Source: Burkholderiaceae bacterium
GTDB lineage: Bacteria > Pseudomonadota > Gammaproteobacteria > Burkholderiales > Burkholderiaceae_C
Assembly: GCA_013360485.1 (NCBI GenBank)
Contig: JABWBN010000013.1
Location: 1 to 37,930 of the forward strand
Reading direction: 5' to 3'
DNA: 37,930 nucleotides
The notes under the pieces are model-generated. The model worked only from the letters and a program-made list of their open reading frames with translations. It did no database searches and was not told the origin of the DNA. The position numbers were made by a program, and so were the translations under genes. Below are positions 10,807 to 28,689 of the stretch, in pieces; the stretch's first letter is position 1; every line of letters starts with the position of its first letter.

Positions 10807-11712
10807 TCAGTGCGACATCAACACGGGCACCGTCATCGACTCCAGCATCGTTCGTGTAACGCCGCCCAGCATCATCTCCCACAGGCGCGGGTGCCCGAAG
10901 GCGCCCATCACGAGCAGGTCGGCCCGAGTGTCGGCAGCGTGTGACTGCAAGGCCTCGGCGACGGCCACGTCGGGGACCCACCCGCGCCGCATGCGCTCGC
11001 CGATCGACGGCTCGGTCTGTGTCAACACCATCGGGTTGACCGGCACGCCGTGTCGTTCCAGGTAGTTCGCCACCTGCTGGAGCGACTCCTGCCGCAATGC
11101 TGCGTCGTCTCGGCCCGCAGCCGTGAAGCTGACCAACTCGACGTGCGACGCGCGCATCAACAATGGCAGGGCATCGCGAACGGCACGGGCGCTCTCGCGC
11201 GTGTCGGACCAAGCCACCAGGACACGCCTCAAGTAGGCGTCCGGTCCAGCCTGCGCGCGCGCGTCGCTCCAGCCGATGTAGGGAACTGTCAGCACCGGGC
11301 ACGCCGCCCCCACCAACAGTCGCGCACTCTGCCCGACCGACAAGCCGCCTTCGCCCTGCGGACCCCTTTGCGAGGTGATCAGCATGTCGGCCGTGCGGGC
11401 CCAAGCCTGAAGCGCCTCGACCGAGTCGCCATCGGTGAGCTGCAGATCGATGTCGATCGGAAGGCGCAACCGGATGTCCGTCACGAGCCGCTCACCCGTC
11501 GCGCGCAGAGCATCGCGCTGCGCCTGGGCGAGTTGCTGGGCCAGTGCCGCCGTTTCCGCGCTGAGCCCCACTCCGGCGTTCACAGGGGCGGCCACCAGGA
11601 GCGCCGTCAACCGAGCATCCCAATGCCGAGCGAGCAATGCCGCCAGTTCGATCGCCTGGCCCGACAAGGACTCGTCATTGACGTGAACGACCAGATTGCG
11701 CATGGATGTCAT
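10807..11712 (-). CDS. Tandem universal stress protein (UspA family)
   Basis: This 301-aa cytoplasmic protein has two Usp domains (about residues 4-145 and 163-301). The second half keeps an ATP-binding-like glycine motif (MGAFGHPRLWEMMLGGVTRTML); the first has a weaker version (TSQRGPQGEGGLSVGQSARLL). A strong AGGAGG ribosome-binding site lies seven bases before the ATG at 11712. It is divergent from the P-type ATPase gene. Such tandem proteins usually respond to stress or energy limitation; the exact role here is not deducible. Confidence 0.88.
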   Translation of the reverse strand: MTSMRNLVVHVNDESLSGQAIELAALLARHWDARLTALLVAAPVNAGVGLSAETAALAQQLAQAQRDALRATGERLVTDIRLRLPIDIDLQLTDGDSVEALQAWARTADMLITSQRGPQGEGGLSVGQSARLLVGAACPVLTVPYIGWSDARAQAGPDAYLRRVLVAWSDTRESARAVRDALPLLMRASHVELVSFTAAGRDDAALRQESLQQVANYLERHGVPVNPMVLTQTEPSIGERMRRGWVPDVAVAEALQSHAADTRADLLVMGAFGHPRLWEMMLGGVTRTMLESMTVPVLMSH

Positions 11713-20544: not shown

Positions 20545-20570
20545 TGAACCGAAAGGCTGGCCACCGCAAC
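20545..20570 (+). promoter_or_regulatory. Predicted ECF sigma promoter P1 (TGAACC-N14-CGCAAC)
   Basis: TGAACC at 20545-20550 and CGCAAC at 20565-20570 are separated by exactly 14 bases. The same two hexamers with identical spacing occur upstream of three other genes of this cluster, including the ECF sigma gene. The site is 75 bases before the ATG of the 70-aa secreted peptide. Assignment to this sigma factor is inference from position and recurrence. Confidence 0.75.
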
Positions 20571-21135: not shown

Positions 21136-21699
21136 CTACAGGCCGCGGAACTGCACCCGGCGGTTTTCGGCGGCAGTCGGATCGAGGCCGGCGATCATGC
21201 GGCTCTTGCCGAAGCCAGCCGTGAGCAGCCGGTCCGGATCGATGCCGTGTGCAGCGCTCAAGTAGCGCTTGACCGCCTCGGCACGCCGGTGAGAGAGCTC
21301 GCGGTTGTATGCATCGCTGCCGATGACGTCGGTGTGGCCTTCAACGAGCACGGCACGCTCGGCCGGCAGCATCCTGATGCCGGCCGCCAGTGCGTCGAGT
21401 TGAGGGCGTGCAACGTCGGCGATCTCGGCCGAGCCGAAGCCAAATCGCACCTGCAACGACAGGGCCTGTGCTGGCGCTGCCGTCGGGGCCACGGGCGCCG
21501 CCGACTCCGCCGGGGTGGCTTCGCCGAGCAGATGGATGGAGCGCGTCTTGACCCGTTGCGGCGCCTTGCCGCTGAGAATCGTCGCGACGTCGACCGGGTT
21601 CAGCTCCTGCCCCTCGCGGTAGTAGGCGACCTCGTCGGCCCACGCCGGGGCGGCCAGCAGGGCGGTTGCGAGGGTCAGGGCGGACAGCTTGCAAAACAT
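21136..21699 (-). CDS. OmpA-family peptidoglycan-binding protein
   Basis: This 187-aa exported protein has a signal peptide (1-21, cleavage at AWA-D), a linker rich in Ala/Pro, and a C-terminal OmpA-like domain (about 83-187). The domain holds the VEGHTDVIGSDAYNRELSHRRAEAVKRYL-type segment, including the Asp, and a late NRRVQF Arg that together bind diaminopimelate of peptidoglycan. There is no beta-barrel, so it is a periplasmic or lipid-free anchor protein. The ATG at 21699 has an AGGAG site; the longer frame crosses the promoter. It is preceded by predicted ECF promoter P2 and ends the minus-strand cluster. Confidence 0.85.
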   Translation of the reverse strand: MFCKLSALTLATALLAAPAWADEVAYYREGQELNPVDVATILSGKAPQRVKTRSIHLLGEATPAESAAPVAPTAAPAQALSLQVRFGFGSAEIADVARPQLDALAAGIRMLPAERAVLVEGHTDVIGSDAYNRELSHRRAEAVKRYLSAAHGIDPDRLLTAGFGKSRMIAGLDPTAAENRRVQFRGL

Positions 21700-21733
21700 G
21701 GGATTCTCCTGGTTGCGGGGAACTCGCTCATGG

Positions 21734-21759
21734 GTTGCGCCCAACGCCCAGAAGGTTCA
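21734..21759 (-). promoter_or_regulatory. Predicted ECF sigma promoter P2 (TGAACC-N14-CGCAAC)
   Basis: On the minus strand TGAACC (21759-21754) and CGCAAC (21739-21734) are spaced by 14 bases, as at the three other sites. It lies 34 bases before the ompA-like ATG. The bases after CGCAAC read CCATG, as at P3. Confidence 0.75.
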
Positions 21760-21792
21760 ATCTGCAAGCGCGGCCGCGCTGCCGCATGACGA

Positions 21793-22137
21793 TCAATGGC
21801 CGGGCTGGACCTCGGGACGGTGCGGCGGCGGCTCGCCGGCCGGGCGGATGAGGCAGGTGGCGCTGTCGGTCGCGGCAATGTAGATCGGCCTGCCGTCCCG
21901 TCCTGTGGCGCTGATCTTCACCGCCTGGCGTGCACCATCTGCGGGCAGCGTGACATGGTTCTCTTCGAACAGCAGCTGGCCATGCTGCCAGCAGCGGATC
22001 TGGTAACCACCCGCGGGCCTGGCGTCGATCGACCCATCGCGAGCCGGGCTTGCCGAAACGGTGGCCAACGTCAGGGCCGGGGCCAGGACCGCCACAATGG
22101 CGACCAGCCTCCGGGCGAAGTCACTGTGCTCGAACAT
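21793..22137 (-). CDS. Small exported two-cysteine protein, unknown function
   Basis: This 114-aa protein begins with a hydrophobic signal segment (residues 10-29, likely cleaved near VSAS). The mature part has two cysteines (49 and 95) around a beta-rich sequence (YQIRCWQHGQLLFEENHVTLP) and ends in a Pro-rich tail. Its start lies inside the end of the CsgG-like lipoprotein gene (17-base overlap), with a GGAG site, so the two are translationally coupled. I do not recognise the family. By position it may be an accessory or chaperone of the secretion lipoprotein, comparable in size to CsgC/CsgE, but no homology is claimed. Confidence 0.72.
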   Translation of the reverse strand: MFEHSDFARRLVAIVAVLAPALTLATVSASPARDGSIDARPAGGYQIRCWQHGQLLFEENHVTLPADGARQAVKISATGRDGRPIYIAATDSATCLIRPAGEPPPHRPEVQPGH

Positions 22138-23719
22138 GGAGGGTCTCCTGGGCCAGCTTGCCACGGCCGGCGGCGATGAAAGCCTCACGCACCTGCGGCA
22201 GCGTGGCCGCGGCGAGCGGCTCGAAATCGGTACCGACGACACTTGCGGGCAGATCAGCGAGCACGTCGCGCTCGGTGGCAAAGCAGGAAAAGGTTTCCTG
22301 CGCACCCGGCTTGGTCATCGCTAGCTGGAAGCGCATCGCGCCCGGCAAGGCCAGCACGCTCGACGCCGCAACGCGCGGGTCCTTGGCGTAGCGGTTGGGG
22401 AAGAAGCGGATGAGCCTGGCGTGTTCATCCAGCACGTAGCAATACACAAAAGCGTCGCGGCTGGTCTTCAACCGCAGCCCGATCGGCTCACCCAGCGCGA
22501 AGCTGGTGCGTGACGGGTTCGTCGTCAGCTCGAGCACCAGCGGGGCACTCGCCGCCGCAGGTGCTGCAGGGGCCGCAAGCGCAGCCAAAGGCGCCGCCGC
22601 GGCAGCAGGCGCTGCAGTCCACCGCGCTGGAGCCGCCGGGCGCGCAATCTTTCGGTGGTCAGCGCCGAGGTAAGCGATGAAGAAGGGTTCGTCCAGCACC
22701 GCCTCGCGGCTCAGCCCCAGCGCGAAGCGGTAACTGGCGATGGCTTCATCGATGGCGGGATTGAACGTGCCGTCAATCGGACCGTCGTAGTAGCCGCGGC
22801 GGCGCAGTTGGTTCTGGAAGTAGGCGATCAGCTCGACCCGGCTGGTGGCCATCGCGTAGTACCAGTCGGAGACCTCCAGCCTGACCTCCTCGTTGCGGCT
22901 CGCATCCGCCTCGAGGCACCGCCAGTACGGCGTCTTGGTCAGCTTGCCTGCCAGCTCGATGACCGCCAGCTCGATCAGGCCGCGCAGCGCCTGCGCTCGA
23001 CCCTCCGAGCGGCTCAGGTTCATGCTGTAGCTGATGCCGAACTTGTGATAAGCGGCGTCGCCATCGAGCCCCCTGCCCTGCTTGAGGATGACCACCGAGT
23101 TGCGCGATGTGACCCCGGGCATGACGGACATGTCCTGGGTTGTCAGCACGCTCAGGTCCAGGCCGAGAACCGTGGAGGCCGCGTCGCGCGACACCCCAAG
23201 GTTGAGCAAGGGCTGAAGGCCGATCCCCACGTCCTTCTGGTTGCGTATGAGATCTTCGTCGAGCTGGGAGATGGACCCCTTGATGTCGTACTGAGGGATC
23301 ACCGCGTAGGCGCCCTGGCGCTGCGCCGAGGCCAGGAAGCCGATCGCGTTGCTCGCGTCCTTGCCAAACGCCACGAGTCGGATCGCTCGGCTGCGCCGGG
23401 TCATGTCCGACACCGCCGATATCAGCATGTCGCGCGCGCCGGCATTGACCTTCTGCGTCTGGTCCGCCAGGTCCTCGACCAGCATCGACACGTCGCGCAC
23501 GCCATAGTCGGCGAGCAAGCCGTCCATGCACCGCAGCGCTGGCGCGAAACTGGTGATCGTGCGCCGCGGGGCCTGTTGGGGCCCCTGGCGAACGGCGTCG
23601 GTGTGCTCGACGGTGCGCCGCTCGACATCCACCGTCGAGCAGCCCCCGAGCATGGCGGTCGCGGCGACCAGGGTCGCCAGCCAGTGCTTCGGGCGGTCCA
23701 TGCGGCTGCAGAGTGACAT
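22121..23719 (-). CDS. CsgG-like outer-membrane lipoprotein with PG-binding and DUF4384-like domains
   Basis: This 532-aa lipoprotein has a lipobox ending at Cys27 (MLGGC). Residues about 50-270 follow the layout of CsgG, the curli secretion pore: the VSMLVEDLADQTQKVNAG segment, a helical RDMLISAVSDM stretch, YDIKGSISQLDED, a LDLSVLTTQDM strand pair and the final ALRGLIELAVIELAGKL helix. A peptidoglycan-binding module (297-340, QNQLRRRGYYDGPIDGTF) and an Ala/Pro linker (360-393) follow. A DUF4384-like domain (395-500) holds EPIGLRLKTSRDAFVYCYVL. E. coli CsgG is only 277 aa, so this is a fusion. ATG 23719 has a GGGAG site. Likely role: an outer-membrane export channel anchored to the cell wall. 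Domain calls are by eye. Confidence 0.8.
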   Translation of the reverse strand: MSLCSRMDRPKHWLATLVAATAMLGGCSTVDVERRTVEHTDAVRQGPQQAPRRTITSFAPALRCMDGLLADYGVRDVSMLVEDLADQTQKVNAGARDMLISAVSDMTRRSRAIRLVAFGKDASNAIGFLASAQRQGAYAVIPQYDIKGSISQLDEDLIRNQKDVGIGLQPLLNLGVSRDAASTVLGLDLSVLTTQDMSVMPGVTSRNSVVILKQGRGLDGDAAYHKFGISYSMNLSRSEGRAQALRGLIELAVIELAGKLTKTPYWRCLEADASRNEEVRLEVSDWYYAMATSRVELIAYFQNQLRRRGYYDGPIDGTFNPAIDEAIASYRFALGLSREAVLDEPFFIAYLGADHRKIARPAAPARWTAAPAAAAAPLAALAAPAAPAAASAPLVLELTTNPSRTSFALGEPIGLRLKTSRDAFVYCYVLDEHARLIRFFPNRYAKDPRVAASSVLALPGAMRFQLAMTKPGAQETFSCFATERDVLADLPASVVGTDFEPLAAATLPQVREAFIAAGRGKLAQETLHVRAQ

Positions 23720-23758
23720 GGCGGTGGTGCTCCCTCGTCGATGCTGTAGGCGGCTCGA

Positions 23759-23780
23759 CGTCGCCCGATGCCGGGCGACG
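23759..23780 (-). repeat. 9-bp intercistronic hairpin
   Basis: The stem 23759-23767 with 23772-23780 (ATGC loop) lies between the 105-aa gene and the CsgG-like gene. It could modulate mRNA stability within the operon. No T-run. Confidence 0.4.
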
Positions 23781-23787
23781 CTGGCCA

Positions 23788-24105
23788 TCACGGAACCCGG
23801 TGGCAACCTCGGCCGGACACGATGTTGATGGCGTTCGGCGCAAACACAAAGACCTCGCGCGGTGCGGCAGCGGCATTGCCGCCCGTGTCGACGTTGCCGA
23901 TGTTCTGGCTGCCGCAGCGGCCGCTGTCAAGCCCCTCGTCAGTCGAACCCTGAGCGCGCTCGAGTCCCGCCAGGCGAACCTTCGTCTTGATGAGCTTGGC
24001 CCGAAACCGGGCATCGACGGCGAACTCGTCCTCCGAGGCGTACACCGCGGGAGCGTGCAAGGCGGCCATGGCCAGGACGAGGCTGTGCAGAACGGTCCAT
24101 TTCAT
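23788..24105 (-). CDS. Small exported protein with Cys-flanked C-terminal motif
   Basis: This 105-aa precursor has a signal peptide (1-23, cleavage near VYA-S) and a charged middle. The C-terminal segment is bounded by Cys64 and Cys101; it reads CGSQNIGNVDTGG, then APREVFVFAPNAINIV before the second Cys. The composition suggests a compact disulfide-closed beta element. A strong AGGAG site precedes the ATG. It lies between the repeat-protein gene and the CsgG-like gene. In curli operons CsgE and CsgF (about 130 aa, exported) occupy this role next to csgG; that analogy is inference only, since I see no sequence match. Confidence 0.75.
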   Translation of the reverse strand: MKWTVLHSLVLAMAALHAPAVYASEDEFAVDARFRAKLIKTKVRLAGLERAQGSTDEGLDSGRCGSQNIGNVDTGGNAAAAPREVFVFAPNAINIVSGRGCHRVP

Positions 24106-24120
24106 CGCGAGACTCCTGAA

Positions 24121-24183
24121 CGTCGGCGGGGGCGCCGACGGTTTGTCCGGGCCCGCTGAGGCAGCAGCGCGGGCCCACCGGAC
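24121..24183 (-). repeat. Two hairpins between the repeat-protein gene and the next gene
   Basis: One stem is 24121-24128 with 24133-24140 (8 bp, GGGG loop). The other is 24149-24156 with 24169-24176 (8 bp), extended by 24145-24148 with 24180-24183 across a 3-base bulge. They fill the gap after the repeat-protein stop. Such stems could let the fibre-type gene be expressed above the downstream secretion genes, as partial terminators or 3' protection. Confidence 0.45.
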
Positions 24184-24192
24184 TCGGGGGCA

Positions 24193-24867
24193 TCAGTTCG
24201 CCACGCCGATGCGTTGCGTCGCATTCGCGCCATAGCCTTCGACCGCGTTGTAGGCGTTACTGGCCACGATGGCGGCCTTGACCAGGCGCCCCTGGCCGCT
24301 GGCAAAGCCGATCGTCTGCGACGCACGGGCGCCATCGCCATCGCTCACCGTGTTGGTCACGTTGTTGGCAATCACCGTGCTGGCAAGGACGCGGCCGTCG
24401 CCGGAAGCGCCGCCGATCGCCTGGCTCGCCGTCGAGTAGTCCCTGGCCGTGTTGCTCGCACCCTTGACCTGAATGCTCGAGCCGTCGATCTGCCCCCGGT
24501 CCGCTGCGAGACCGATCTGCTGGAGGGCATCGCTGTGGGACCCCAACGCGTTGTTGCGCAGATCCGAGGCGACGACCATGCTGTTCTGGATCTGCCCACT
24601 ACCAGTGGCAAGACCTACGTTCTGCGTCGCCTTTGCATAGCTGCCAGACGCGCTGTTGGTCGCGGAGACGACGCGAATCGTTGAGGCGAGTATGCGACCT
24701 TCGCTCTCGACAACGCCGAGTTGCTGCAGCGCACGCGAGCCCGTATGACGGGCGGTGCTGGTGACATCAGACACATCGACGGACGTGTCACGGATCTCGC
24801 CGGCGATTGCACCGGCGGCAACGATGCCGAGGGCCACGACGATGACGGTCTTGCGGAAGGCTTGCAT
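24193..24867 (-). CDS. Exported repeat protein, candidate fibre/amyloid subunit (curlin-like logic)
   Basis: This 224-aa precursor has a signal peptide (1-22, cleavage after AIA) and then six copies (the last partial) of a 33-35-residue repeat. Each repeat has Q-x-[ILV]-G, with the Gly at 51, 85, 119, 152, 187 and 221, then G-[RQ]-[IVL] six residues later and Asn near the end. It has no Cys, few aromatics, and many Ala, Ser, Gly, Asn and Gln. This suits stacked beta-arches or a beta-solenoid and recalls curlin repeats (Gln/Asn ladders), but at 34 rather than about 22 residues. AGGAG precedes the ATG at 24867. The predicted ECF promoter P3 lies upstream and a CsgG-like secretion gene downstream. 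Fibre formation is inference. Confidence 0.82.
   Translation of the reverse strand: MQAFRKTVIVVALGIVAAGAIAGEIRDTSVDVSDVTSTARHTGSRALQQLGVVESEGRILASTIRVVSATNSASGSYAKATQNVGLATGSGQIQNSMVVASDLRNNALGSHSDALQQIGLAADRGQIDGSSIQVKGASNTARDYSTASQAIGGASGDGRVLASTVIANNVTNTVSDGDGARASQTIGFASGQGRLVKAAIVASNAYNAVEGYGANATQRIGVAN
24196..24747 (-). repeat. In-frame tandem repeats of about 102 bp (34 codons)
   Basis: Residues 41-224 of the exported repeat protein are built of units of 34, 34, 33, 35 and 34 residues plus a partial sixth. The protein pattern is conserved but the DNA has diverged, so the array is old rather than a recent slippage product. Confidence 0.8.
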
Positions 24868-24945
24868 GATGGATCTCCTGGGAACTGGGGGGGTGAAGTT
24901 GCGGGACTGTTGGCATGGCCGGTTCGTCCGCCATCCGATGCATGG

Positions 24946-24971
24946 GTTGCGCCCCCGGCGCGAAGGGTTCA
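24946..24971 (-). promoter_or_regulatory. Predicted ECF sigma promoter P3 (TGAACC-N14-CGCAAC)
   Basis: On the minus strand TGAACC (24971-24966) and CGCAAC (24951-24946) are spaced by 14 bases. The site is 78 bases before the repeat-protein ATG. The flanks match P2 further (TTGAACC before, GGGCGCAACCCATG at the end). Confidence 0.78.
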
Positions 24972-25035
24972 AACAATCTTCGTCCCCGACCCCGGCGCCT
25001 TCAGGCGCCCTTGCGCCCGGGCGCCAGACCGTCGT

Positions 25036-25896
25036 TCAGCGGCAATCGCCCTGCGGCGAGGGCCTGAAGCAGAAGTCCGCCGTCAGGCTCGACGACTCCC
25101 AAGGCACCTGCACCCGTGCGGTGGCCTCGGCCACACCGACACGTACGCGCTTGAACAGTTGCTCGATCGGCAGCCCGGGGGTGTCCAGGTGCTCGAGCAA
25201 GTACTTGGTATAGACGCTGTGCGACCCTGCCGGGTTGTCGAGCGCCACGCCGTTGGGCGAAGTGGAGAACGCGATCATCGTCCCCATCGGCGCATCCAGC
25301 GCGGCCAGCCCGGGCGGCGTGGACCCGCGAAACTTGAGCCTGCGCCCGTCCGGCCCCACGATCACGCCACCGGCGAAGGGGTTGACGCGACAGGCGTCGA
25401 GCACCACCACGTTGATCCCGTGCGCAATCGCACCAAGCCGCTCGACGAAAGCGCCGACGTCCACGCCCTGGCGCGCGATGTCGTCCTCGGTCTGCGGATT
25501 GGCGTCCACAGGCAACAGGAAATTGCGCCCGCGCCACTGGACGCCATGACCTGCGTAAAAGACCAATCGGACCCGAGCCCGCGGCGCCCGCAGCGAAAAC
25601 TCGCGCAGGCCTTCGATCAACTCACGCAGCGACGTGTCCTCATGCAGACCAACGGCGTAGCCCATGGCGCGCAGTCGCGCGGCAACGGCCTTGGCATCGT
25701 TGATCGGATTCTTCAATGGCGCGGCCTTGTAGGCCGCATTTCCGATCACGAGCGCGATGCGCTCGGGATCTCGGGCCGCTGCGGCAAGCCGCGGCAGCGC
25801 GCCCGTGGCTGCCCCCGCAATCGTGGCGGCGATCGCGCCCAGAACGCTCCGGCGATCGACGCTCTCTTCCGACGAGACCATCCGCGACGCGTTCAT
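25036..25896 (-). CDS. Exported caspase-like protein (peptidase C14)
   Basis: This 286-aa protein has a caspase/metacaspase fold domain (about 45-270). The catalytic pair is visible as His117 in FYAGHG and Cys169 in LDACR. The N-terminus holds a twin-arginine-type signal (DRRSVLGAIAATIAGAATG, residues 14-32), so it is probably exported folded through Tat. It is 18 bases downstream of the anti-sigma gene and belongs to the sigma/anti-sigma operon. A role in proteolytic signalling, for example on the anti-sigma factor or on secreted subunits, is possible but not shown. Confidence 0.87.
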   Translation of the reverse strand: MNASRMVSSEESVDRRSVLGAIAATIAGAATGALPRLAAAARDPERIALVIGNAAYKAAPLKNPINDAKAVAARLRAMGYAVGLHEDTSLRELIEGLREFSLRAPRARVRLVFYAGHGVQWRGRNFLLPVDANPQTEDDIARQGVDVGAFVERLGAIAHGINVVVLDACRVNPFAGGVIVGPDGRRLKFRGSTPPGLAALDAPMGTMIAFSTSPNGVALDNPAGSHSVYTKYLLEHLDTPGLPIEQLFKRVRVGVAEATARVQVPWESSSLTADFCFRPSPQGDCR

Positions 25897-25914: not shown

Positions 25915-26529
25915 CTACTCGCGCGGGGGCAGGCCGGGCGCCAGTGATGCCGCCTGCAGGATCGGTCGACCACGCAGGCGCTCGAGTGCCTGCGCCTGCG
26001 TACCGGGCGCCACGCGAACGTAGTAGTCGCCCAGTTGCCCTGGGCCGCCGACGATCTGCCCGCCGATCTCGACGAGGAACATGCGGATGTCCACCTCCTT
26101 CGCATCAGGTGCGAAGTTGAGCTTGAGCAATGGTCCTTCGTCCGCCTGTACGGCTCGCAACGCGCGAAGCTCCTGCGCGTCGTCGCGCTCACCGAGCAGG
26201 CTGACGATGACACCGCCCTGCACTGCAACGACGGCAAAGGCCGCCAGTGCCGTGGCCGGGCGCATGCCCAGGCTGGCAACGAAGGAGCCGATGCGCTCGG
26301 ACCATGTCGGTCGGTCGCCCCGGATCCGCTTCATCGCCTTGTCCAGCCCGATCGTCGCGGGCACGCGCGGTGCACCCTCGAGCATGCGTTCGCGCAGCGA
26401 CTGCTGCCACTTCAGTTCGGCATCGGCCTGGGGATGCCGCGACAGGTAGTCCTCGACCCAGGCGCGATCGGCGTCGCTCAAGGTGCCGTTGACAAACCAC
26501 GGCAGCAGTTCGTCGAAGCGCTCGTTCAT
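25915..26529 (-). CDS. Membrane anti-sigma factor
   Basis: This 204-aa protein has a cytoplasmic N-terminal helical domain (1-75) starting NERFDELLPWFVNGTLSDAD, typical of anti-sigma domains. It lacks the His/Cys zinc ligands of ZAS proteins. One membrane span follows (about 90-113) and then a periplasmic domain of about 90 residues with IGGQIVGGPGQLGDYYVRV. Its ATG overlaps the sigma gene stop as ATGA, the standard arrangement of an ECF sigma factor and its inhibitor. The longer frame upstream is sigma-gene shadow. The periplasmic domain presumably senses the release signal. Confidence 0.87.
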   Translation of the reverse strand: MNERFDELLPWFVNGTLSDADRAWVEDYLSRHPQADAELKWQQSLRERMLEGAPRVPATIGLDKAMKRIRGDRPTWSERIGSFVASLGMRPATALAAFAVVAVQGGVIVSLLGERDDAQELRALRAVQADEGPLLKLNFAPDAKEVDIRMFLVEIGGQIVGGPGQLGDYYVRVAPGTQAQALERLRGRPILQAASLAPGLPPRE

Positions 26530-27110
26530 GCTGCCGCCCCGGCGGTGTCGCCTTCGCTGCCCAGCAACCGCTGCAGGCAGCCCTTGATCTTCTGCCGCGC
26601 GTGGAACAGGCGCGTCTTGACCGTCCCTTCGGGGCAGCGCTGGACCTGCGCTACCTCGGCGAGTGACAGGCCTTCGAAGAACACGAGGTGCATGCACTCG
26701 CGATGCTCCTCGGACAGGCGGCCCATGCAACGCTGGACGCCCTCGGAGCGCTGCTTGGACGCCAGCTGGGTGTAGCCGTCCGGCGTGTCGGCGGCGACCG
26801 TTTCCGCGATGTCATCGAGCTCGTCGTGGGCCTCGTCGGGTCGACGCGCCCGGTAGACCATCAGCGCCTTGTTGCGGGCAATCCCGATCAGCCAGGTGCT
26901 GAACTTCGAATCCCCGCGAAAGCGTGCGGGGTGCCGCCAGACTTCATACATCGCATCCACCACCACTTCCTCTGCGCGCGCGTGATCGTTCAGCATGTTC
27001 AGCACATAGGCGTAGACCTTGCGGCTGAATGCCGTGTACAGATCGCGAAACGCAGCCTGGTCTTCCTTGCCGATCCGTGCCAGAAGCTCCATGACCCGGG
27101 CGTTGTCCAT
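26526..27110 (-). CDS. ECF-type RNA polymerase sigma factor
   Basis: This protein of about 194 aa is a sigma-70 group IV factor. Region 2 (about 18-85) has FRDLYTAFSRKVYAYVLNML and the AEEVVVDAMYEVWRHPARF -10-binding segment. Region 4 (about 125-185) has LAEVAQVQRCPEGTVKTRLFHARQ as helix-turn-helix. There is no extra C-terminal domain. ATG 27110 is preferred, although no strong ribosome-binding site is seen; ATG 27092 is an alternative. Its own upstream region carries the predicted promoter P4, so it is probably autoregulated and controls the repeat-protein, ompA-like and small secreted genes. Confidence 0.9.
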   Translation of the reverse strand: MDNARVMELLARIGKEDQAAFRDLYTAFSRKVYAYVLNMLNDHARAEEVVVDAMYEVWRHPARFRGDSKFSTWLIGIARNKALMVYRARRPDEAHDELDDIAETVAADTPDGYTQLASKQRSEGVQRCMGRLSEEHRECMHLVFFEGLSLAEVAQVQRCPEGTVKTRLFHARQKIKGCLQRLLGSEGDTAGAAA

Positions 27111-27237: not shown

Positions 27238-27263
27238 GTTGCGCCAAATCGCGCGCTGGTTCA
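27238..27263 (-). promoter_or_regulatory. Predicted ECF sigma promoter P4 (TGAACC-N14-CGCAAC), autoregulatory
   Basis: On the minus strand TGAACC (27263-27258) and CGCAAC (27243-27238) are spaced by 14 bases. It lies 127 bases before the sigma-factor ATG, so a long leader is predicted. The outer flanks differ from P1-P3, which supports the two hexamers as the core recognition elements. Confidence 0.72.
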
Positions 27264-27333: not shown

Positions 27334-28689
27334 CTACTTGCGCCGCACGAACAGGAAGTCGCCGCCCTCGTGCCCGGCCATGCGGATGTCGGCGAACTGA
27401 GGCAGCTGCTCCGAGTTGAGTGCAACCGGCCGGCGCAGCTCCGCAAACAGCGAGGTCGCGTCGAGGACGCCGCGGTTCGACGCCAGCACGCGCAGCAGCG
27501 CGGCAGCAAACGGCGAGTGGCCACTGCCTCCGGAGTCGGCCACCGGTTCGAGGCCGCCCGAACTCAGCACCTGCCTGGACTTCAACCGGGCCATGCGCTC
27601 CAGGTGTTCCTGGCCGCGCCCGAGTTTGAGCTCCGCGCCCCGCGTCAGCGTGCCTGAGAAACAACTGTCGGCCACGACCAGAACATGCCTGGACTTGAGC
27701 GCACGCAACGTGTCGCGCACGGTGTCGTTGGAGACCCACTGGGTGCGCCGGTTCGGCTGGGCATCGATAGGCAGCCAGTAGCCCTTGTCGGCCTCGGTGT
27801 CCAGCGAGCCGTGCCCGGCGTAGTAGATCAGCAGGTTGTCGTTCGCGCGCAAGCGGTTGCGGTACTCATCGAGCACGTCGACGATCTGGTCCCGCGTGGC
27901 GTTGACCAGTGCGGTGACCTCAAACCCATACTGGGCAGCCAGCAGATCACCGACGGCCCGCGCGTCCTTCACGGCGGTGTCCAGCCGCTCGAGGTGCTTG
28001 TAGGCGTCGTTGCCGATCACCAGCGCGTGATAGCGCCCGAGTGATGCCACATCGACCGGCGCCAGCGCATCGCCCGGCGCGGCCGATGCGGACACGGCCG
28101 GTTTGCCCGCATTGGCGGCCAGTGCGATCTTCTTGTCCAGCGCAGGGCTCGGCTCACGTGCAGCCGCAAGCCGGTAAGAAGCCTCGGCCTCCGCAGTGCG
28201 CCCGAGGGTGAGCAACAAGTCGCCGCGCGCGACCAGCAGCCTGGGCTCCTGCGGCCGGGTCTTCAAGGCCTTGTCGCAGGCAGCCAAGGCGGCCTCGCCC
28301 GTCAGCCCCAGGCACCGCGTCTGCGCCAGCGCAAACTCGTCATCGGGCCTGGACGCCTGCGCCGCGCGACTGCGTGCAACCCAAGCCGCTTCGTCGGCCA
28401 GACCCTGCACCTCATGCTCGCGCAGTCGCAGCCGCGCATCCGATGGCTGATGCTGCCGTGCATCCTGCAGCACACGCAGCGCTGCGGCGTAGTGCCTCGA
28501 CGCAACCCAGGCATCGACCAACGCGATGACCTCGCCCGCATTCGCACCCGCGATCGCTTCTCGGCATGCCGGACTCAGCTGCTCATTGCCGTCTGCCTGG
28601 CACGCGCTGAGCCCGGCGCCATGCGCCGGCACCGCGCATGCCGCGACCACGAGCCAGGCCGAAACCAGGAATGACCGCCAATCGCTCAT
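27334..28689 (-). CDS. Exported TPR/caspase-like protein
   Basis: This 451-aa protein has a signal peptide (1-25), a helical TPR-like region (about 50-190, repeated A/L-rich helices such as EPRLLVARGDLLLTLGRTAE) and a C-terminal caspase domain (about 218-450). Catalytic residues are His293 in YYAGHG and Cys343 in DSCFSG. The domain ends with a GGDFLFVRRK strand. It is the second caspase-like gene within 3 kb. It is 24 bases downstream of a lipoprotein gene and directly upstream of the sigma promoter P4. It may be periplasmic or surface-associated. Substrates are unknown. Confidence 0.87.
   Translation of the reverse strand: MSDWRSFLVSAWLVVAACAVPAHGAGLSACQADGNEQLSPACREAIAGANAGEVIALVDAWVASRHYAAALRVLQDARQHQPSDARLRLREHEVQGLADEAAWVARSRAAQASRPDDEFALAQTRCLGLTGEAALAACDKALKTRPQEPRLLVARGDLLLTLGRTAEAEASYRLAAAREPSPALDKKIALAANAGKPAVSASAAPGDALAPVDVASLGRYHALVIGNDAYKHLERLDTAVKDARAVGDLLAAQYGFEVTALVNATRDQIVDVLDEYRNRLRANDNLLIYYAGHGSLDTEADKGYWLPIDAQPNRRTQWVSNDTVRDTLRALKSRHVLVVADSCFSGTLTRGAELKLGRGQEHLERMARLKSRQVLSSGGLEPVADSGGSGHSPFAAALLRVLASNRGVLDATSLFAELRRPVALNSEQLPQFADIRMAGHEGGDFLFVRRK

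Follow-up and report, generated by a model that had tools for sequence, protein, structure and literature searches.

The 37,930-nucleotide window, the whole stretch of DNA analysed here, carries on its minus strand a gene cluster that probably encodes a CsgG-superfamily machine for the export and assembly of a surface fibre, distinct from curli (CsgABDEFG) and from HfaABD, the holdfast anchor of Caulobacter. Coordinates are positions in this window, and "window" also serves as the locus label of the studied cluster when it is compared with its relatives. The host is a bacterium related to Azohydromonas, with a draft genome of 4.3 Mb that is 84.7% complete. In minus-strand order the cluster contains genes for the caspase-like protease casp2, an extracytoplasmic function (ECF) sigma factor, an anti-sigma factor, the caspase-like protease casp1, an exported repeat protein, an exported protein of 105 amino acids (aa), a lipoprotein with a CsgG/HfaB-like pore domain, an exported 114-aa protein and an OmpA-domain protein. 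Throughout, "exported" refers to our own hydrophobicity rule combined with reading by eye, not to SignalP. An earlier sequence-only reading had proposed a separate CsgG-dependent export system related to curli, and the evidence favours such a separate export and fibre system under ECF control, with a pore that lies on a branch of its own. Such a machine would work like curli or HfaABD as a member of the CsgG/HfaB superfamily that falls into neither family by the defining tests made. Gene order, pore-domain homology, repeats, the solenoid prediction, linkage of the 105-aa family and the shared upstream element were all computed directly.

CsgG-type pores are known from few systems, namely curli, HfaABD and perhaps MafA, and pores of this kind are used in nanopore sensing. 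If the interpretation is right, a third lineage, which has a partner and subunits of its own, widens the known range of amyloid-like surface export, and it offers more pores of the nanopore-sensing kind together with a compact ECF regulon as a switch for the system.

The pore-family lipoprotein

The lipoprotein has an LGGC lipobox at Cys27, a residue that is invariant in all ten family members compared. Searched as a single sequence, it has no match to Pfam CsgG, and two of the ten members reach that model at E<=1 (best 0.041). The match of the window lipoprotein to the NCBIfam HfaB model is weak (E=0.0011, 18.2 bits against a cut-off of 300 bits); nine of the ten members, this one included, match that model at E<=1 (best 2.5e-6). 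A profile built from the ten members retrieves HfaB proteins from a set of open reading frames (ORFs) with E-values down to 3.6e-15. Alignment of the first 290 residues by hhalign with default scoring gives 2.5e-18 over 272 columns for HfaB and 8e-11 over 244 columns for CsgG. Default scoring is not relied on as sole evidence because its shuffled controls gave two false strong scores: 1 of 20 and 1 of 60 column-shuffled HfaB alignments fell below 1e-18, the one inspected covering 45 end columns. Without correlation scoring, the values are 7e-12 for HfaB and 9.8e-7 for CsgG, and the 60 column shuffles made of each set all stay at 0.4 or above. Judged from these alignments, the homology of the pore domain to CsgG and HfaB is real but remote, and HfaB, not CsgG, is the closest kin of the lipoprotein. 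The CsgG match anticipated by the sequence-only reading is absent from the single-sequence Pfam search and present at the profile–profile level. When the PDB was searched by sequence with the pore profile, no chain of CsgG came up, and almost all of the 17 matches lay on the peptidoglycan-binding part.

In a tree of 88 rows, one long branch with full support separates all 65 family rows from the HfaB rows (10) and the CsgG rows (13). The rooting is for drawing only, a long-branch warning applies, HfaB and CsgG rows are slightly intermixed (L038, L063 and L064), and L115, L117, L135, L021 and L022 are omitted. HfaABD, like the cluster, places a CsgG-superfamily lipoprotein gene beside small exported proteins, and HfaB is the nearest known pore by profile. 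Unlike HfaB, the pore of the cluster stays outside the HfaB and CsgG rows, scores far below the HfaB cut-off and is fused to a peptidoglycan-binding domain and to DUF4384; ECF genes also adjoin it.

The repeat protein as a putative fibre subunit

The exported repeat protein shows an autocorrelation of z=10.2 at period 34 relative to 60 shuffles, with six units in register. AlphaFold (AF2) predicts a beta-solenoid of strands only, with a predicted local distance difference test score (pLDDT) of 87.8 and a predicted template-modelling score (pTM) of 0.86. A Pfam scan found no domain in this protein. The curlin repeat PF07012 is unmatched in the window, in the host genome and in the repeat proteins of 14 relatives; the positive control L065 matched at 5.3e-7. 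No FapC match was found for the window repeat protein, and a profile of the repeat had no match in a PDB sequence search. A fold search with the solenoid returned generic beta-helices only, FapC and CsgA being present among the rows and not above unrelated ones.

The cluster resembles curli in having a repeat subunit, small exported helpers and a CsgG-superfamily pore. QxGxxN, described as the minimal curli motif (PMC3521004), occurs in 3-6 copies in 7 of 11 checked repeat proteins of the clade; of 2000 composition shuffles, between 0 and 18 had as many. The repeat proteins of the window, L017, L018 and L128 contain no copy. A repeat-unit profile from the window, L017 and L018 aligns in register with the QxGxxN repeats at E=0.0013 and a probability of 18%, and none of 100 shuffles scored as low (lowest 0.0074); this kinship is suggestive only. 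Unlike curli, the cluster has a 34-residue repeat unit, a two-cysteine partner and an ECF sigma factor instead of CsgD. The host draft genome gave no match to the CsgG, curlin, CsgF or CsgE models, although a CsgE or CsgF gene may lie in the part absent from this assembly, which is 84.7% complete. The Fap amyloid system shares with the cluster an exported repeat protein, FapC, which the window repeat protein does not match. FapF, the export barrel of Fap, belongs to a different family.

A two-cysteine partner linked to the pore domain

The 105-aa protein belongs to a family with a C-terminal module of the rough form C-x3/4-(I/V)G-...-V-x-(V/I)-x-x-G-(D/N)-(I/V)-(I/V)-N-...-C. In all 24 aligned members the final five residues include one cysteine, and a second lies 27-39 residues earlier. 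The family alignment found 51 matches in 50 of the 399 genomes of the GTDB family, all of them on the same strand as the CsgG-like domain and 123-493 base pairs (bp) upstream of it, and none among the 326 genomes in which the CsgG-like domain was not found. Eighteen of the 50 matched genomes supplied seed rows of the alignment and are hits by construction; the other 32 did not. Absences in these genome searches are not absolute, as a capped number of candidates (7-11) was scored per genome; weak matches to the 105-aa family elsewhere could be missed because at most 11 were scored. Of the 73 genomes that contain the pore domain, 23 have no match to the family, and the L165-L174 clade has a different small protein in its place. 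The two halves of the family, from loci with 34-35- and 39-residue repeats, are related to each other at E 0.0007-0.002 without correlation scoring and 1e-6 to 7e-6 with it.

Homology of the family to CsgF or HfaA was considered and rejected, since the E-values without correlation scoring were 0.07 to 0.23 and covered the N-terminal part only; the comparison with a five-row HfaA set gave 0.23, again confined to the N-terminus. A FapC match of the 105-aa protein (E=0.12, residues 4-43) was dropped as a match of the signal peptide. The claim that the helpers and the subunit lack a recognisable curli match stands for the 105-aa helper, which is not detectably CsgF or HfaA, and for the subunit, which curlin PF07012 does not match.

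These comparisons bear on an HfaABD-like anchor, in which the pore would export short surface proteins that glue polysaccharide, a holdfast-like adhesin, to the cell and form no free fibres. HfaB is the closest known relative of the pore, the peptidoglycan-binding domain and the OmpA protein fit an anchor, and HfaA is described as CsgA-like, multimeric and directed to the outer membrane by HfaB (PMC6707917). However, the 105-aa family shows no detectable homology to the five HfaA rows, and a Pfam scan of ten cluster proteins revealed no polysaccharide family, HfaD and holdfast genes not having been searched in the genome. An anchor of this type is considered unlikely, and a fibre-assembling machine remains the preferred interpretation.

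Distribution, neighbourhoods and variety of substrates

Of 399 genomes of the GTDB family, 73 contain the pore domain, and they represent 41 of 141 genera; the counts are 14 of 300 genomes for the order and 27 of 398 for the phylum. Seven of the 27 phylum matches are weak (E 8e-11 to 4e-4) and all in one bacterial family; four of these (G079, G177, G205 and G349) exceed the HfaB cut-off and are HfaB. Two Azospirillum plasmids carry the domain, in each case in a gene with the annotation DUF4384 domain-containing protein that has an OmpA family gene behind it. The A. ramasamyi gene is preceded by sigma-70 family and zf-HC2 genes; upstream of the A. lipoferum gene, a repeat protein of 97 aa and a two-cysteine protein of 126 aa are read by eye. 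Present in 73 genomes of a single family, the lineage is named only as a DUF4384 domain-containing protein in the two annotated records, and no description of the cluster was recognised in the literature searched, which did not extend to subscription papers and preprints.

A co-directional repeat protein (z>=3) lies within three genes upstream of the pore gene in 52 of 69 loci; 16 loci lack one and one is at a contig edge. The same test on controls in these loci was positive for 11 of 263 control genes and for 7 of 95 exported controls, the controls being restricted to 80-600 aa and the partner genes unrestricted in length. The 69 loci, which are not independent because several are close kin, consist of 60 fetched regions minus L116 and L118 (no called pore gene) and L115 (a duplicate of L018), plus the window, L017, L018 and L019-L027. 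Among the 16 without a repeat, L026, L131, L148 and L149 are repetitive by eye, and L143 and L135 look like gene-calling failures; the contig edge is L117. L023 is among the 52 by the z rule and is nevertheless read as non-repeat. Fifteen further regions stand outside this count: ten contain a pore gene, most of these with a repeat protein nearby by eye, and L220 and L221 are without one. The repeat protein accordingly co-occurs with homologues of the lipoprotein rather than being consistently absent from their neighbourhoods. Repeat lengths across loci cluster at 34-35, 39 and 28-29 residues. In the L165-L174 sister clade the repeat partner reaches about 970-1220 aa, with periods of 28-29 or 35, and is possibly a giant surface fibre. 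Exported proteins of about 120 aa flank it on both sides in this clade, and an OmpA protein is often present.

Taken as a whole, these data slightly favour the broader view of a third, undescribed lineage of CsgG-superfamily surface-fibre systems across Pseudomonadota. Such a lineage would be defined by a lipoprotein fusing pore, peptidoglycan-binding and DUF4384 domains, in most members by a linked two-cysteine assembly factor unlike CsgF and HfaA, and by solenoid subunits of the three repeat classes; the window clade would add a dedicated ECF sigma promoter as well as exported caspases with a possible part in fibre processing.

Several observations weigh against a purely fibre-forming role. 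L023, L120, L125, L129, L153 and L220 carry an exported protein of 205-273 aa, read as non-repeat, in or next to the place of the substrate. In A. ramasamyi a pair of DUF4399 proteins takes the place of the substrate ahead of the pore gene (L205 5724-6828), and the paralogues L021 and L022 have no co-directional gene upstream. No usable model of the pore fold was obtained, the prediction from three sequences only having a pLDDT of 43 and being discarded. Because such non-repeat, DUF4399 and partnerless loci exist, the pore family seems to be reused for other substrates. The 205-273 aa proteins contain cysteine, and an ECF gene lies directly 3' of the pore gene in L023, L125, L129 and L220. In L021 (7395-8807) and L022 (7417-8847) a promoter-like element stands just 5' of the start, and lytic transglycosylase-like and secretin-like genes adjoin by eye.

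This variety of partners is what would be expected if the pore were a conduit for varied secreted proteins, as in MafA-MafB, the solenoid acting here as effector or shield. The MafA-MafB system, compared by description only, resembles the cluster in an outer-membrane lipoprotein that exports a specific partner and that its authors likened to CsgG (PMC7738311), and some relatives of the cluster adjoin genes resembling those of type VI secretion. However, the partner of MafA is a toxin, whereas the partner in the window is predicted to be a solenoid, consists of repeats only and matches no Pfam domain, and seven relatives have the 3-6 QxGxxN repeats; non-fibre export is correspondingly improbable. 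Marginally less probable again is an envelope-stress regulon, with the lipoprotein as a poreless, periplasm-facing scaffold and the repeat protein as a periplasmic structural protein. The presence of ECF and anti-sigma genes with OmpA, caspase and peptidoglycan-binding parts agrees with such a regulon, as does the fact that no usable model of the pore fold was obtained. Against this, the HfaB profile match spans 272 columns, and repeat partners of the size found in the L165-L174 clade were judged unlikely as periplasmic proteins.

Probable regulation by a shared upstream element

The element TGAACC-N15-GCAAC emerged when sequences upstream of genes in the window, L017 and L018 were compared. 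All three loci have it ahead of the repeat gene and ompA, and the window and L017 have it ahead of the ECF gene as well. Four matches lie in the window, where 0.02 would be expected. The one before a 70-aa ORF was not used in pattern discovery, and L017 retains both the element and the ORF (11075-11284); this exported Cys-rich ORF is a possible fourth member of the regulon. In the 4.3-Mb host genome, the long form ending GCAACYC occurs three times, all in the cluster, with none for the reversed control; the short form occurs eight times, four of them in the cluster, with five for the control. The element precedes the repeat gene by 63-84 bp in nine loci, of which L116, L124, L128, L141, L155 and L219 (six) were unused in discovery; it precedes ompA by 30-50 bp in five loci and by 186 bp, counted from a doubtful start, in a sixth, L141. 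Its position ahead of the ECF gene suggests autoregulation, and the elements fit one autoregulated ECF regulon, their recognition by this sigma factor being inferred. ECF control of the system, as the sequence-only reading had it, is probable.

A working model

In the proposed mechanism, the repeat protein would be delivered to the periplasm and would then pass in unfolded form across the outer membrane by way of a ring built from CsgG-like lipoprotein subunits. Outside the cell it would fold and stack as a beta-solenoid, one 34-residue coil per repeat, to form the fibre. The 105-aa protein may serve the pore as a nucleator, a gate or a cap, as CsgF or HfaA does in other systems. Anchorage of the machine to peptidoglycan would be provided by the peptidoglycan-binding domain of the lipoprotein together with the OmpA protein. 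The anti-sigma factor would hold the ECF sigma factor, which on its part would activate its own operon, the repeat-pore operon, ompA and the small exported ORF via the shared promoter. We infer that the exported caspase-like proteases may trim or remove subunits.

Gene layout and the caspase-like proteases

The features of the cluster are summarised in Table 1. All five genes of the minus-strand block previously outlined are present in the order given. Its upper limit of 24971 does not hold, the TTG start at 24972 being the beginning of a promoter-like TTGAACC element; the repeat gene likely starts at the ATG at 24867, which has AGGAG ahead of it. The 114-aa gene starts inside the 3' end of the lipoprotein gene. 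The block is conserved in L017, and conserved but rearranged in L018, a locus of the laboratory strain Azohydromonas lata NBRC 102462. The unit is probably larger than this block and includes the caspases, the anti-sigma factor and the ECF sigma factor, because these accompany the block in L017 and, rearranged, in L018 and others.

Table 1 Features of the cluster in the window
Feature	Position	Strand	Basis or remark
Promoter-like element before 70-aa ORF	20545..20570	+	TGAACC-N15-GCAAC, short form only
Exported Cys-rich ORF, 70 aa	20646..20858	+	Promoter-like element ahead; ORF and element both have counterparts in L017
OmpA-domain exported protein, probable peptidoglycan anchor	21136..21699	-	Pfam OmpA E=2.2e-19; in 17/71 loci
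Promoter-like element before ompA	21734..21759	-	35 bp upstream of ATG
Exported protein, 114 aa, two Cys after signal	21793..22137	-	Homologues directly 3' of pore gene in 8/71 loci including window
CsgG/HfaB-like outer-membrane lipoprotein, 532 aa, predicted export pore	22121..23719	-	Lipobox, profile comparison, tree
DUF4384 domain, residues 407-484	22268..22501	-	Pfam E=1.6e-15; 9/10 members at E<=1
PG_binding_1 domain, residues 299-339	22703..22825	-	Pfam E=5e-5, 23.8 bits, cut-off 23; 9/10 members at E<=1
CsgG/HfaB-like domain, residues 50-289	22853..23572	-	hhalign against HfaB and CsgG sets
Exported protein, 105 aa, C-terminal two-cysteine module, predicted assembly partner	23788..24105	-	Family alignment, linkage to pore domain
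Exported repeat protein, 224 aa, six 34-residue repeats, predicted beta-solenoid fibre subunit	24193..24867	-	Autocorrelation, AlphaFold
Promoter-like element before repeat gene	24946..24971	-	79 bp upstream of ATG
Exported caspase-like protease (casp1)	25036..25896	-	Pfam Peptidase_C14 E=1.5e-34
Anti-sigma factor	25915..26529	-	NCBIfam antisigma E=9.4e-9, 35.6 bits, below cut-off 100; one hydrophobic segment by eye
ECF sigma factor	26526..27110	-	NCBIfam sigma70-ECF 95.5 bits, cut-off 42.9
Promoter-like element before ECF gene	27238..27263	-	128 bp upstream of called start
Exported TPR-caspase protein (casp2), probably linked	27334..28689	-	Pfam Peptidase_C14 E=2.3e-26; same place in L017

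Type VI secretion genes and a caspase gene precede the cluster in some relatives, as at 911-5037 of L018, the secretion genes having been recognised by eye or from a short motif as TssM-like and TagF-like; TagF-like genes are also seen in L115, L116, L124 and L155.

The caspases are the least understood part of the cluster. They are found in 12 of 71 loci, many stretches being too short to judge. Both exported caspase-like proteases show His/Cys motifs by eye, and casp1 has YAGHG and DAC motifs together with a twin-Arg stretch, also by eye, the NCBIfam twin-arginine translocation model remaining below its cut-off. Arginine is found at some repeat junctions of the repeat proteins (GR-I, GR-V and GR-L). 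Such junctions would suit enzymes that cleave behind positively charged residues, as is reported for orthocaspases (PMC6426788).

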